64,000 bases of DNA. Origin: Thermoleophilia bacterium SCSIO 60948 (lineage in GTDB: Bacteria > Actinomycetota > Thermoleophilia > Solirubrobacterales > 70-9). The DNA is taken from assembly GCA_021496505.1 (NCBI GenBank), contig CP053031.1, positions 2,224,001 through 2,288,000 of the forward strand, in the 5' to 3' direction. The stretch's first letter is position 1. The number at the start of each line of letters is the position of its first letter. The notes under the pieces are model-generated. The model ran no database searches. It saw only the letters and a program-made list of their open reading frames with translations, and was not told the origin of the DNA. Positions 55,241 to 61,415 of this stretch are shown one piece after another. Position numbers and translations under genes: made by a program.

Positions 55241-56524
55241 TCAGCCGAGCAGCGACTCGCCGACGTAGCCGCCCTCACTGGCGCCTGGCGGCACCGCGAA
55301 CAGCGAGCTGCCGTTCGTGACGATGTACTCGTTCAGCCGGTCTCCGGCGAGGTTCTGCTGCACACGGACGAATTGCTCGGGGTCACGCTGGAAGGAGATG
55401 AAGAAGAGGCCGGCGTCGAGCTGGCCGAGCTCCTGGTCGACGCCGTCGGAGAACGAGTAGCCACGCCGCAGGAGTCGCGCGCCGCCGTTCATCGCCGGAG
55501 AGGCGAGCCGGATGTGAGCATCGGCGGGGATCGCCGGCGTGCCGTCGGGGTTCTTGGCCGCGAGGTCGACGTCGGCGAACTCGTCGCTCTCGCCGAGCGG
55601 CGCTCCGGACATCTTCGTGCGGCCGATCGTCAGCTCCTGATCGCCGAGCGAGGCGCGGTCCCAGACCTCGAGCAGCATCCGGATCCGGCGCGCGACGAGG
55701 TAGGTGCCACCGCGAAGCCACGCCGGCGCCTCCGAGCCTGCCCAGACGAAGTCGTCCATCAACTCGGAGTCCTCGGCGCGGATGTTGTTCGTGCCGTCCT
55801 TCAACCCCATCAGGTTGCGGGGCGTGTCCTGTTCGCGCGTCGTCGTCGCGGTGCGGCCGAAGCCGAGCTGGAGGTAGCGCAGCACGGTCAGCCCGCGACC
55901 GATCCGCGTCAGGTTGTGGACCGCGTGGAAGGCGACCTGGGGGTCGTCCGAGCACGCCTGGATGCAGACGTCTCCCCCGCCACGGCGCGGCTCGAGGTCC
56001 TCGAAGGGCAGCGGCGGCAGCTCACGCAGCTCGCGCGGGCGCTGGGCGGCGAGTCCGTAGCGGTCCTCCCCGCCCGACTCGAACAGGCCGGGGCCGAATC
56101 CGAACGTGATCGTGAGCCGCGAGGGCAGCAGCCCGAGGGTCTCCCCCGTGTCGTCCGGTGGCGCGAACTCGTCGGCGTTCTCCGGGCCCGCAGGCTCGCC
56201 GGCGGTCATCCGCGCGGCGGCGTCGGTCCAGGCGCGCATCAGCTCGGCGACGCCGGCGCGGTCGGTCGCGGTCACGTCGAAGGCGCCGAAGGCGAGCCGG
56301 TCCTGGGCGGCGGTGTCGATCCCGGCCTGGTGAGTGCCGAAGAACGGCACCGTCCCGGTGCCGCTCGACGGGTCCGTGGAGCGGCCGAGCGCGTAGCCGG
56401 CGCCGCCGAGGCCGAGTCCGACCCCGGCGACGCCGGCCGCGCCGAGCAGGCGGCGACGGGTGAGCGAATGGCGGGCCTCCTCCGTCCCGCCCTCGCTCCG
56501 AGCCTGTCGCGCCGCGTCGCTCAG
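55241..56524 (-). CDS. efeB: Deferrochelatase/DyP-type peroxidase, Tat-exported
   Basis: A 427-residue heme peroxidase. Seen: GTHQAGIDTAAQDRLAFGAFDV at the start of the mature enzyme, GLKDGTNNI (GxxDG), HAVHNL with the proximal His region, and YSFSDGVDQELGQLDAGLFFISFQRDPEQF. The in-frame sequence before the first possible GTG (56350) codes a clear twin-arginine signal, SLTRRRLLGAAGVAGVGLGL, so the true start must lie further up. No ATG/GTG/TTG exists there; CTG 56524, 7 bases after AAGGGG and 4 after the efeO stop, is proposed. EfeB works outside the membrane with EfeO in iron uptake. Confidence 0.85.
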   Translation of the reverse strand: MSDAARQARSEGGTEEARHSLTRRRLLGAAGVAGVGLGLGGAGYALGRSTDPSSGTGTVPFFGTHQAGIDTAAQDRLAFGAFDVTATDRAGVAELMRAWTDAAARMTAGEPAGPENADEFAPPDDTGETLGLLPSRLTITFGFGPGLFESGGEDRYGLAAQRPRELRELPPLPFEDLEPRRGGGDVCIQACSDDPQVAFHAVHNLTRIGRGLTVLRYLQLGFGRTATTTREQDTPRNLMGLKDGTNNIRAEDSELMDDFVWAGSEAPAWLRGGTYLVARRIRMLLEVWDRASLGDQELTIGRTKMSGAPLGESDEFADVDLAAKNPDGTPAIPADAHIRLASPAMNGGARLLRRGYSFSDGVDQELGQLDAGLFFISFQRDPEQFVRVQQNLAGDRLNEYIVTNGSSLFAVPPGASEGGYVGESLLG

Positions 56525-56528
56525 ATCG

Positions 56529-57419
56529 CTACCCCTTGACCTCGCCGGCGGCCTGCGAGAGCGGCTCGGCGAGGGCGTCGAGGCCCTGCGAGAGCTCGCG
56601 CCGGCCGGCCTGGTCGACCTCCTCGTAGGAGACGTACTCGGCGCCCTCCTCGTAGCGCTCGAGCAGGTCGTAGACGTCGGCGAAGCGCTGCGAGACCTCG
56701 TCCTCGAGCTCGGGGTCGCCGACGAGCGGCGCGACGGCGTCGAACGCCGTCTCCGAGCCCTCGACGTTGGCCTCGAAGTCGTAGAGGTCGAGGTGGGAGT
56801 AGCGCTCCTCCTCGCCCGTGATCTTCGAGGCCGAGACCTCGCCGAGCAGGTCGATCGACCCCTGGGCGATGTCGGCCGGCGTCAGCTCGAGATCGGGTGC
56901 CAGCTCCTGGAGCTCGCGGACGTCGGCGCGCGTCTCGTCGATGTACTCGTCGAGCCCGGAGACGTCCTCCTCGACCCAGAGCTTCTTCTCGAAGAGGTGG
57001 AAGCCGCCCCAGGTCTTCGGATCGACGTCGCCCTCGCGGGCGTCGAGCGAGGGGTCGAGATCGCCGAGAGCGCCCGCGACCGGCTCGATCCGCTCGAACG
57101 GGAGCCGGGCGATGATGTACTGCCGCTTCGCGGCCTCGATGTCGCCCTCGGCGACGAGGTCGAGGAACTCATCGGTCTCGGTCACGAGCTCGTCGGCGTT
57201 CTCGATCGCGTAGCGGCGGTACTCGTCGACCGCCGCCTGCTCCTCACCGGAGAGCTCCGCAGGCCCCGCGCTCGCGGTCGTAGCGGTCGATCCACCGCCC
57301 TCAGCGGTCTCCGCGCCGTCGTCGCTCCCGCACGCCGCGAGCAGCAGGGTCGCCGCGAGGGCGAGGAGAACGAGAACGGTGCGGCCTGGCCGCGGTCGGC
57401 GAAATGGTGATCTGTTCAA
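56529..57419 (-). CDS. efeO: Iron-uptake lipoprotein EfeO (imelysin/M75 fold)
   Basis: A 296-residue lipoprotein. Lipobox LLLAACG, linker, then the EfeO/imelysin domain: YAIENADELVTETDEFLDLVAEGDIEAAKRQYIIARLPFERIEPVA, KTWGGFHLFEKKLWVEED with the HxxE motif of M75-type proteins, and a helical remainder. EfeO binds iron outside the membrane and passes it to EfeU. The TTG start follows AGGA. EfeB is 4 bases downstream; no EfeU gene is adjacent. An iron-box-like repeat lies upstream. Confidence 0.88.
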   Translation of the reverse strand: MNRSPFRRPRPGRTVLVLLALAATLLLAACGSDDGAETAEGGGSTATTASAGPAELSGEEQAAVDEYRRYAIENADELVTETDEFLDLVAEGDIEAAKRQYIIARLPFERIEPVAGALGDLDPSLDAREGDVDPKTWGGFHLFEKKLWVEEDVSGLDEYIDETRADVRELQELAPDLELTPADIAQGSIDLLGEVSASKITGEEERYSHLDLYDFEANVEGSETAFDAVAPLVGDPELEDEVSQRFADVYDLLERYEEGAEYVSYEEVDQAGRRELSQGLDALAEPLSQAAGEVKG

Positions 57420-57465
57420 GGGTCCTGAGCCTTTCGGAGGAGCGTGTCGCCGCCGCAGCGGCGCA

Positions 57466-57498
57466 TATTAGGGATGCCTAAGTTCGGGTACCCTAATA
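57466..57498. promoter_or_regulatory. Iron-box-like inverted repeat between efeO and the DUF6529-like gene
   Basis: TATTAGGG (57466-57473) and CCCTAATA (57491-57498) are perfect inverted halves with 17 bases between; a second, shorter pair TTAGG/CCTAA lies inside (57468-57481). TTAGG...CCTAA half-sites are the hallmark of DtxR/IdeR boxes. The match to the 19-bp consensus is partial (about 13-14 of 19). The site sits between divergent genes and could repress both under iron excess. Confidence 0.5.
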
Positions 57499-57559
57499 CC
57501 TAGCGAAGCAGTCGGCATTCCGACCCGCCGGACGGGTCACCTACCCTCCGCGCTCGGAC

Positions 57560-57994
57560 ATGGAGGAAGCGCTTCAGAACCTCACCGGCGGCAACCTGAC
57601 CGAGGTCAAGGTCGTCCTCGCGACGATCGTGATGGCGCTCGCGATCTACATGATCGGGTTGATCGCGGTCGGCTACGGCGTCGTCAAGCTGCCGTTCCTC
57701 GCCTGGGGCCCCGCGACCCTCGCCCACCGGGCGGTCGGGACCGGCGTGGTGCTGATCGCGCTGCTCGTCGGGTTCGCGTGCATCGCGGCCTTCGGCCTCG
57801 AGAGCGACTACCTGCTGCACGGGATCGCCGGGATCGCGGTCTTCGTCGTGCTCGGATTGAAGATCGCGGTGATCCGGCGCTGGCGGTCGCTCAACTCGTG
57901 GCTGCCCGTGCTGGGGCTGACCGTCCTGGCGCTCTTCGCAGTCGTCTGGGCGACCTCGGCCGGCGACTTCCTGCTCGGGGGAGGTGAGGAATGA
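57560..57994 (+). CDS. DUF6529-like four-helix membrane protein
   Basis: A 144-residue protein with four membrane helices. LTEVKVVLATIVMALAIYMIGLIAVGYGVVKLPFL opens it; histidines appear in helices two and three (TLAHRAVGTGVVLIALLVG; LLHGIAGIAVFVVLGLKIAVIRRW), a layout that could bind b-type heme. It ends with LGLTVLALFAVVWATSAGDFLLG. I recall this pattern from DUF6529 proteins of actinobacteria. Divergent from efeO across the iron-box-like repeat, so an iron or heme link is inferred. It overlaps the next gene (ATGA). Confidence 0.68.
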   Translation: MEEALQNLTGGNLTEVKVVLATIVMALAIYMIGLIAVGYGVVKLPFLAWGPATLAHRAVGTGVVLIALLVGFACIAAFGLESDYLLHGIAGIAVFVVLGLKIAVIRRWRSLNSWLPVLGLTVLALFAVVWATSAGDFLLGGGEE

Positions 57995-58206
57995 GCGTCG
58001 CCCAGCAACGCCGCCAGGTGATCGCCGCCCTGATCGGCGCCGTCGTCATCGTCGTCGCGGTGGTCTTCATCGTCATGGGCCAACTCGGTACGACGAGCGT
58101 GACCGAGATCGAGGCGCAGCAAGAGCGCCGCGACCAGGCGATCGACCGCGCCGACGACCGCCGAGACGCCGCGGAGGACCGCCGCGAGGAGCAGGCCGAG
58201 AACTAG
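57991..58206 (+). CDS. Small membrane-anchored protein with charged helical tail
   Basis: A 71-residue protein: one helix (VIAALIGAVVIVVAVVFIVMG) and a highly charged tail (IEAQQERRDQAIDRADDRRDAAEDRREEQAEN) likely to form a helix outside or inside the membrane. The start overlaps the DUF6529-like stop by 4 bases, implying a partner protein. Not recognised. Confidence 0.65.
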   Translation: MSVAQQRRQVIAALIGAVVIVVAVVFIVMGQLGTTSVTEIEAQQERRDQAIDRADDRRDAAEDRREEQAEN

Positions 58207-58485: not shown

Positions 58486-59670
58486 CTAGGGCCTGTTTCT
58501 GCCGTAGGTGTCGTGACTCGACACCCACTCGTGGGCGACGATCGCGGCGCCGAGCGAGATCTCGCCGCAGAGGACCGTCGCGGCGACGATCTCGGCGAGC
58601 TTTCGGACCTTTCCCTCGCCGTAGCAGCCGAGCAGCTCGAGGCACTCGCGCTGCGTGGCGAGACCGGTGCCGCCGCCGTAGCTCGCAACGATCAACGACG
58701 GGATCGTGATCGAGTAGTAGTAGTCGCCGTTGTCTCGCAGCTCGGCGTAGACGGAGGCGGCCGAGGACTCGGCGACGTTGGCGACGTCCTGGCCGCAGGC
58801 GATGAAGATGGCGGTGATCCCGTTCGCCGAATGCGAGCCGTTGTTGATCACGCCCGCCGTCTGCCCGCCGAGGTGCGAGACCTGGCGCGCGCGGTAGAGC
58901 GCGGCCGTGTCGACCCGCATCACGCGCTCGATCACCTCGCTCGGGATCACGGCTTCGGCGATCACCCGCTTGCCACGCGTTCGCATGAAGTTGAGGTGCG
59001 AGTGCTTCTTGTCGGTCGCGAAGTTCGACTCGAGGTAGAAGTGCTCGATCCCCTCGGGTCCCTCGTAGTTGGCGAGGATCCACTGACAGGCCGCGAGCGT
59101 CGCCTTGCCGGTCATGTTCTGGCCGGCGGCGTCGCCCGTCGTGTAGTTGAAGCGGGTCAGAAGCAGCCGACTCGTCGGCACGCGGTCGATCTCGATCAGC
59201 CTGCCGCTCGAGGTCGTCTCCTCGGCCGCGGCCTTGATCGATCCGTAGTTGTCGTCGAGCCAATCCGAGAACGCCCGTGCTCCGCGCGCCGAGTTGAACA
59301 GGAACGACGGCGCGCGCTGCATGTGGTCGCCGGAGACCGTGGTCTTGATCCCGCCGCATTCGTGGAGCAGTCGCATGCCGCGGTTGTAGGAGGCGACGAG
59401 CGTGCCCTCGGTGGTCGCCATCGGGACGTAGAACTCGCCCTTCGCGTGCTCGCCGTCGACGAGCAGCGGGCCGGCGAGGCCGATCGGTACCTGCGCGGCG
59501 CCGAAGAACTGCTCGCAGTTGCCCCCGAGGCTCGCGGGGTCGAGCGAATAGGAGCCGACGTCGTCGAGCGACCCTTCGCTGCGCTCGAGCGCGAAGGCGA
59601 GCCGCTCCTCTGCCGCCTCCCGCGAGTAGTCGTCGTCAGGGCGGCGGGGAACGGGGACGCGATCGCTCAT
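58486..59670 (-). CDS. Hydroxymethylglutaryl-CoA reductase
   Basis: A 394-residue HMG-CoA reductase, which makes mevalonate from HMG-CoA with NAD(P)H. Conserved blocks: VPIGLAGPLLVDG, MATTEGTLVASYNRG with the catalytic Glu, FATDKKHSHLN with the Lys, TTGDAAGQNMTGKAT with the Asp in place of DAMG-NM, GGGTGLATQRECLELLG and a C-terminal His in VSSHDTYGRNRP. Most like class I/archaeal enzymes. No other mevalonate gene is nearby. Downstream of it lies the repeat-rich gap. Confidence 0.9.
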   Translation of the reverse strand: MSDRVPVPRRPDDDYSREAAEERLAFALERSEGSLDDVGSYSLDPASLGGNCEQFFGAAQVPIGLAGPLLVDGEHAKGEFYVPMATTEGTLVASYNRGMRLLHECGGIKTTVSGDHMQRAPSFLFNSARGARAFSDWLDDNYGSIKAAAEETTSSGRLIEIDRVPTSRLLLTRFNYTTGDAAGQNMTGKATLAACQWILANYEGPEGIEHFYLESNFATDKKHSHLNFMRTRGKRVIAEAVIPSEVIERVMRVDTAALYRARQVSHLGGQTAGVINNGSHSANGITAIFIACGQDVANVAESSAASVYAELRDNGDYYYSITIPSLIVASYGGGTGLATQRECLELLGCYGEGKVRKLAEIVAATVLCGEISLGAAIVAHEWVSSHDTYGRNRP

Positions 59671-60473: not shown

Positions 60474-61415
60474 TCAAGCGCTCTGGCCGGATGGGCGTAC
60501 TAACCCGGGTGATGAAGCGGAAGTTGCGGCGGGCTCGCCGGGGGCGGCACTCTCGGCCTGCTCACGCAGTCGGCGCCGCAGCGTCTCACCGTGACCGGCG
60601 AGGACGGCGCGCTTGATCCGGTCCTCGTCGATCACCAGGCCGTGCTGATGGGCGAACTCGACGAGCTCCTGGCGCTCCGTGTCGTGCTTGGACCAGCGCA
60701 GCAAGACCCAGGCGAGCAGCCCGAGCGTCAACAGCATCCCCCAGACGGCCATGAACCCGCCGCCGATCGACTGGTCGGTCACCGGGTCGATCCCGAGGGC
60801 CGCGGTGCGCTCGGCGTAGAGCGGATAGATCGGGGTGCCCGCCCACATGAAGACGTTGCCGACGACCGCGACGAACATGTGCTCGGCGGCGACGTAGACG
60901 ATCTGGATCCCGGTCGCGAACCACAGCGGCGCCGGCAGCGGCCCGATCAGCGCCATCCACTTGATCACGCCCGTCGAGAGGAAGAGACCGTGCTCGACGG
61001 CGTGGACGGCGTTGTTCTGAGCCGCCGCCTGGTAGAGCGCCGGGATGTGCCAGATCGCGAACGCGCCGATGAAGATCGCGAGCGCGACGGCGGGATGGAA
61101 CAGCGGCCTGAGGTGGCGCAGGACCGGGGCGCCGAGGATCGGCTGGAGAACCGGCCCGGTGACGCCCATGACGAGCAGGAAGCCGGCGAGGTCCATCAGC
61201 AGCAGGTGCTGGACCATGTGCGCGGAGACGCGCTCCTCCGAGAGCGAGCCGAGCGGGCCGGCCGTCGTCGCGGCGATGGTCAGCAGCCCGGCCGCGAAGC
61301 AGAGCTGGCGCTTGACCGACGGAGCCCGGCCCTTGGGCTCGAGCCTGCGGACCTGCCAGACGTAGGCGACGCCGAGCAGCAGCGGGATACCGAGCTCGCC
61401 GATCAGCTGCAACAT
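60474..61415 (-). CDS. ctaG: Cytochrome c oxidase assembly factor CtaG (caa3 type)
   Basis: A 313-residue membrane protein with about seven helices. Hallmarks: SEERVSAHMVQHLLLMDLAGFLLVMG, FAIWHIPALYQAAAQNNAVHAVEHGLFLSTGVIKWMALIGP and AAEHMFVAVVGNVFMWAGTPIYPLYAE. The conserved histidines and methionines belong to the CtaG_Bacsu family, needed for caa3-type oxidase assembly, probably copper delivery. A charged cytoplasmic tail follows. No oxidase subunit genes are adjacent. Confidence 0.88.
   Translation of the reverse strand: MLQLIGELGIPLLLGVAYVWQVRRLEPKGRAPSVKRQLCFAAGLLTIAATTAGPLGSLSEERVSAHMVQHLLLMDLAGFLLVMGVTGPVLQPILGAPVLRHLRPLFHPAVALAIFIGAFAIWHIPALYQAAAQNNAVHAVEHGLFLSTGVIKWMALIGPLPAPLWFATGIQIVYVAAEHMFVAVVGNVFMWAGTPIYPLYAERTAALGIDPVTDQSIGGGFMAVWGMLLTLGLLAWVLLRWSKHDTERQELVEFAHQHGLVIDEDRIKRAVLAGHGETLRRRLREQAESAAPGEPAATSASSPGLVRPSGQSA

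Follow-up and report, generated by a model that had tools for sequence, protein, structure and literature searches.

How does an EfeO-EfeB pair work when no gene for EfeU, the usual permease, stands next to it? A 64,000-nucleotide stretch of the genome of Thermoleophilia bacterium SCSIO 60948 (contig CP053031.1, positions 2,224,001 to 2,288,000; hereafter the window, whose own numbering is used below) raises this question, as it carries efeO and efeB in one orientation and, divergently across a set of inverted repeats, two genes encoding a DUF6529 protein and a 71-aa one-helix protein (Table 1). An earlier note on this DNA had proposed that these two proteins form the membrane part of a variant iron or heme route. 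The lack of EfeU and the iron-box nature of the repeats stood up to analysis, but the role given to the DUF6529 pair found no support. The explanation that we consider probable is a permease-less, iron-repressed EfeOB, with iron entering via co-regulated ATP-binding cassette (ABC) importers and DUF6529 as an incidental neighbour.

The identification of the pair as EfeO-EfeB holds. The efeB product matches TIGR01412 with 483.8 bits (cut-off 428; E 4e-145), its nearest solved chain being 4grc (E 1e-120), and the efeO product passes NF041757 narrowly (272.2 bits, cut-off 270) and the Pfam family Peptidase_M75 (PF09375) with 101.3 bits (cut-off 23.5; E 9e-29), with 7wgu (7e-47) and 7q1g (5e-40) as solved relatives. 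As the NF041757 match covers only model positions 111-358 of 359, this EfeO is of the EfeM/EfeO-II type and lacks the N-terminal cupredoxin domain of EfeO-I. The lipobox and HxxE motif of EfeO and the twin-arginine signal of EfeB were read from the sequence. According to the accessible text of PMC9174327 (the papers cited here were all available in part), iron binding in vitro is known for a related protein of the M75-only type.

The genome is a single contig of 3.42 Mb, 97.65% complete, in which a profile search gave no match to FTR1/EfeU, either in the efeOB operon or elsewhere, and none to FeoB_C. Two candidate permeases were rejected on these grounds, namely an EfeU encoded at another locus and FeoB. 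The situation is not unique: EfeU adjoins the pair in 12 of the 21 EfeO+EfeB loci examined in the class, and the nine loci without it are the window and those of genomes G083, G109, G122, G081 (a second copy), G073, G181, G155, and G153. Six of the nine genomes concerned have no FTR1 at all (G000, which is the window genome, G073, G083, G153, G155, and G181). The recurrence of efeOB without efeU in Thermoleophilia implies that EfeOB must often function without a dedicated permease.

The inverted repeat between the two gene pairs, TATTAGGG (57466-57473) and CCCTAATA (57491-57498), is confirmed and proves sharper than first described, since it is the outer frame of two tandem 14-bp sites of the form TTxGG-N4-CCTAA. 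Two sites with at most one mismatch were reached in only one of 100 shuffles of the window. A whole-genome scan for TTNGGNNNNCCTAA yielded matches at 13 positions (12 forward, 9 reverse); the reversed pattern gave 1 and 0. Nine of these 13 positions lie upstream of six iron promoters, as identified by gene calling and family searches: those of an FbpA-like binding protein gene, which is accompanied by permease and ATPase genes and whose product matches ferric-ion binding proteins in phmmer (2e-59), and of the genes for a Peripla_BP_2 binding protein, FecCD permeases, a siderophore-interacting protein (SIP), a Dps-like ferritin, and EfeO. Three of the six promoters carry pairs of boxes with starts 14-16 bp apart. 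Of the remaining four positions, one falls within a predicted gene, and the others precede a short-chain dehydrogenase gene, mreB, and, at close range, a 77-aa open reading frame (ORF).

The box also recurs at related operons: of the 23 efe operons surveyed in the class, 18 have it in the 250 nt upstream, versus 42 of 12,900 random 250-nt windows. The 23 exclude L026, L027, and L028 (EfeB only), L036 (an M75 fragment), L106 (no efe gene), and L114 (no EfeO/EfeB match), and include L107 and L113, in which EfeU and EfeO are followed by a contig end before EfeB and which are thus not among the 21 EfeO+EfeB loci; G093 and G113:C166 are EfeUOB by coordinates and lie outside the fetched loci. A chance origin of the box was rejected on the shuffles, the genome scan, and the class survey taken together. 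Judged by its genome-wide targets and its position upstream of other efe operons, the window site is an iron box. Two Fe_dep_repress matches above cut-off indicate that the genome encodes two DtxR-type repressors. For this poorly studied class, the computed iron regulon makes alternative import routes directly testable.

Two further observations concern the box. Sites at L055:4909 and L056:6794 (genome positions 2839408 and 3029793) stand before a 3-hydroxybutyrate-dehydrogenase-like gene and just before the 77-aa ORF, which is of no known family; both are possible new members of the iron regulon. In addition, several family members with the gene order efeU-efeB-efeO have a second iron box between efeB and efeO (L097:4640, L099:6168, L100:3974, and L103:4032).

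Lying between divergent genes, the box could serve either side. Relative to efeO, its sites have positions -77 and -62, which fall inside the -39 to -149 spread of other efe operons. On the efeO strand, its right half continues into TAATAT, by eye a plausible -10 element; the DUF6529 start is 64-92 bp away from the box. The position is thus ordinary for an efe operon and no second target is needed. At several DUF6529 genes of relatives, TAnnnT was seen by eye about 9-12 nt before the start codon, which suggests a promoter of their own, and a scan of the intergenic stretch for the sigma-70 consensus found nothing. The hypothesis that the box also precedes other DUF6529-pair operons was rejected, as it occurs at none of the 13 other loci of the pair.

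The distribution of DUF6529 likewise gives little room for a link with efe genes. Among 232 genomes of the order, 14 carry a DUF6529 of the window type (E below 1e-40), a count outside which fall partial remnants in G149 and G216 and the canonical-type loci of G327, G326, G252, G199, and G065. The one-helix partner is encoded directly 3' of DUF6529 in 13 of the 14 loci, the fourteenth being at a contig end. EfeO/EfeB adjoins DUF6529 in only one of the 14, the window itself. Similarly, no EfeO/EfeB was found in the fetched flanks of ten named DUF6529 loci (L065 and L066 being cut by contig ends), and the single EfeO+EfeB locus with DUF6529, out of 21, is again the window. DUF6529 is missing from the surroundings of the eight other efeOB loci without EfeU, and four of the six efeOB genomes without FTR1 (G083, G153, G155, and G181) have no DUF6529 match of any kind.

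The protein itself fits the earlier description of a four-helix protein with two helix histidines: four helices are predicted, and H56 and H87 are its only histidines. Residues H56-R57, C74, H87, and K101 are invariant in the subgroup alignment. In an AlphaFold2 model (predicted local distance difference test, pLDDT, 75.6; predicted template modelling score, pTM, 0.56), H56 and H87 are near the starts of successive predicted helices (49-78 and 82-107), presumably antiparallel; they are probably at opposite membrane faces. From the helix limits, H87 and C74 would be at one helix end and H56 and K101 at the other, an arrangement that makes a single heme or iron site formed by both histidines of one chain unlikely. 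A b-type cytochrome would need paired axial heme ligands within the membrane, and H56 and H87 are the residues considered for this. The FTR1 profile gives no match to DUF6529 at E up to 1, on which ground a distant FTR1 was rejected, and the protein contains no RE dipeptide, hence no REXXE, the motif of FTR1/EfeU permeases. Fold comparisons are of little help. Foldseek returned no match to the model at E up to 0.001; the VIA comparison gave Z up to 11.4, common to de novo designed bundles and voltage-sensor domains; and cytochrome b561 (4o6y) and heme A synthase (8aw5) appear only among the generic helix-bundle rows, which is uninformative. The only solved chain found by sequence is a de novo designed protein (E 0.12), and a literature search on DUF6529 found no paper.

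Gene neighbourhoods elsewhere in the class provide a hint. A one-helix protein with a CxxCH motif adjoins DUF6529 in seven (L003, L004, L005, L007, L008, L010, and L014) of the 12 canonical-type loci with flanks (sample L001-L011 and L014), and Pfam assigns cytochrome c to all three such proteins tested (one of them from L130, 1046-1402). Canonical DUF6529 and its membrane-anchored cytochrome c are a possible electron-transfer pair, as yet uncharacterised. In another Thermoleophilia family, one annotated locus (L034:3939-10268) has genes for an electron-transfer flavoprotein (ETF), a ferredoxin of the ETF-quinone oxidoreductase (ETF-QO) type, and a flavin reductase near DUF6529. Finally, in five Solirubrobacter-type genomes, the gene directly 5' of the DUF6529 pair encodes a flavin-reductase-like protein (a Pfam search was made for one of them). 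These redox neighbours suggest that DUF6529 is a redox membrane protein and not a permease. DUF6529 and its 71-aa partner are probably a separate, order-conserved membrane pair with a redox function.

This raises the alternative that, in this lineage only, the iron box gained control of the DUF6529 pair, which would assist EfeOB in a redox capacity (for example, in transmembrane electron exchange) and not as its permease. Both the closeness of the box to the DUF6529 start and the membrane cytochrome c, ETF/ETF-QO, or Pyr_redox_2 genes adjoining DUF6529 elsewhere speak for it; as the box position already suits efeO and the TAnnnT elements suggest a separate promoter, we regard it as unlikely. 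A reading in which the two proteins are a transmembrane redox module, so far uncharacterised, that this lineage has recruited to its iron regulon to work with the permease-less EfeOB appears to us rather improbable.

We return to a permease-less EfeOB. Here, the tandem TTxGG-N4-CCTAA sites, which overlap the presumed efeO promoter, are probably occupied by a repressor of the DtxR type; when iron is scarce, this repressor would be released and the promoter freed. Because of the family identities and the box, folded EfeB may be taken to be exported by the twin-arginine translocation (Tat) system and to take iron from heme or oxidise ferrous iron, and the EfeO lipoprotein would hold the iron made available outside the membrane. 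As neither FTR1 nor FeoB was found, the most likely entry route for iron or heme is through the co-regulated ABC importers, either FbpABC-like (a ferric system) or FecCD. The DUF6529 pair would merely happen to flank the promoter. In favour of this explanation, Staphylococcus aureus FepA and FepB without FepC restored heme-iron use in an Escherichia coli mutant (PMC3577903, accessible part).

Several points weigh against this explanation. The authors of the latter study, in the same accessible part, judged the FepA/FepB activity to be cytoplasmic, so that it is no proof of extracytoplasmic uptake without a permease. Hand-over to FbpABC has no support from gene neighbourhood. The box spacer is 4 bp, unlike that of the published DtxR site, which is 19 bp long with TTAGG/CCTAA half-sites and a 9-bp spacer (TTAGGTTAGSCTAACCTAA; PMC1382209, accessible part); as the box is shorter than this site, we only infer which repressor binds it. 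The 19-bp palindrome TTAGG-N9-CCTAA has one site in the window (57478, with two fixed-base mismatches), and 14 of 100 shuffles equalled the window's five matches. The co-occurrence survey of DUF6529 and efeOB is also not entirely one-sided. The link fails by neighbourhood, but at the genome level DUF6529 and EfeB (here at our own threshold, E<1e-90) occur together in six genomes of a class sample of 149, versus 2.7 expected, a weak excess (P 0.03, or 0.07 once the window genome is left out, neither corrected for kinship). In addition, the sole genus-mate genome (G149), with a completeness of 54%, breaks off next to DUF6529, which makes synteny in the closest relative unreadable. Close to this contig end, the DUF6529 reading frame of the genus-mate is disrupted or misassembled (L106:10226-10434), and the one-helix partner is intact.

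Two other alternatives fare worse. EfeOB might mainly be a peroxide or heme detoxification pair linked to iron limitation, and not an uptake system, as the operon has no dedicated permease, EfeB is a DyP peroxidase, and the box is shared with a Dps-like ferritin; given that most other box targets are importers or siderophore-handling genes, and that the related M75-only protein of PMC9174327 (accessible part) binds iron in vitro, we consider this very unlikely. That DUF6529 and the 71-aa protein replace EfeU as the membrane component working with EfeOB, for which one could invoke their divergent orientation on the other side of the box and a genome devoid of FTR1 and FeoB_C matches, is highly improbable, in view of the missing FTR1 match and REXXE motif, the histidines probably at opposite membrane faces, the 13 of 14 order loci in which the pair occurs without efe genes or box, and the EfeU-less efeOB loci and FTR1-less genomes that do without DUF6529.

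Table 1. Features of the efeOB-DUF6529 locus (window positions)
Feature	Position	Strand	Description
efeB	55241..56524	minus	DyP-type deferrochelatase/peroxidase; Tat signal TRRRLLGAAG; likely CTG start 56524-56522
efeO	56529..57419	minus	M75-only (EfeM/EfeO-II type) lipoprotein; TTG start; lipobox LLAAC; HxxE motif HLFE
Iron-box site 1	57468..57481	none	TTAGGGATGCCTAA
Iron-box site 2	57483..57496	none	TTCGGGTACCCTAA; start 15 bp from site 1
DUF6529 gene	57560..57994	plus	Four predicted transmembrane helices; PF20139 61.5 bits (cut-off 23.3), E 1e-16
71-aa one-helix protein gene	57991..58206	plus	One hydrophobic segment, charged tail, LG(P/T)TS motif; 4-nt overlap with DUF6529 stop

As Table 1 shows, the earlier description of the sequence holds. 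The start of efeB deserves comment: no ATG, GTG, or TTG start retains the Tat signal, and the sole candidate found upstream of the signal, back to the preceding in-frame stop, is the CTG, located 7 nt 3' of an AAGGGG at the end of efeO. Standard ORF callers would take GTG 56350 and lose the signal. Downstream on the minus strand are genes for an HMG-CoA reductase and a CtaG-type cytochrome oxidase assembly factor (58486-59670 and 60474-61415), the former of which, by sequence, also adjoins the DUF6529 pair in the genus-mate.

The locus can be compared with four known arrangements. The DUF6529 pair resembles DUF6529 beside membrane-anchored cytochrome c in its four helices, its conserved HR..G, C, H..G, and K, and its one-helix partner with an extracytoplasmic tail (topology inferred), whereas the window partner has no CxxCH and only a charged tail. 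With actinobacterial DtxR/IdeR regulons (PMC1382209, accessible part), the iron box shares TTAGG/CCTAA half-sites, iron importers and dps/ferritin as targets, and encoded DtxR-type repressors, but its unit is 14 bp with a 4-bp spacer and is often doubled, with starts 14-16 bp apart. The EfeUOB/FepABC/YwbLMN iron-heme system has in common with the window an EfeB equivalog above cut-off, an EfeO-family M75 protein, and an upstream iron-linked operator, and differs in that the window lacks EfeU/FTR1 in operon and genome and has an EfeO without cupredoxin domain (EfeM type). Permease-less imelysin-EfeB operons, such as PA4370-PA4373 of Pseudomonas aeruginosa (PMC3143127, accessible part), likewise combine an M75 protein and a peroxidase without EfeU and are iron-regulated, as is predicted for the efeOB of the window from its box. 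The P. aeruginosa operon has two imelysins and a Fur site, whereas the window, in an actinobacterium, has a single lipoprotein and a TTxGG-N4-CCTAA box. Permease-less Efe-like operons are already in print, and the case of the window is ordinary in kind.

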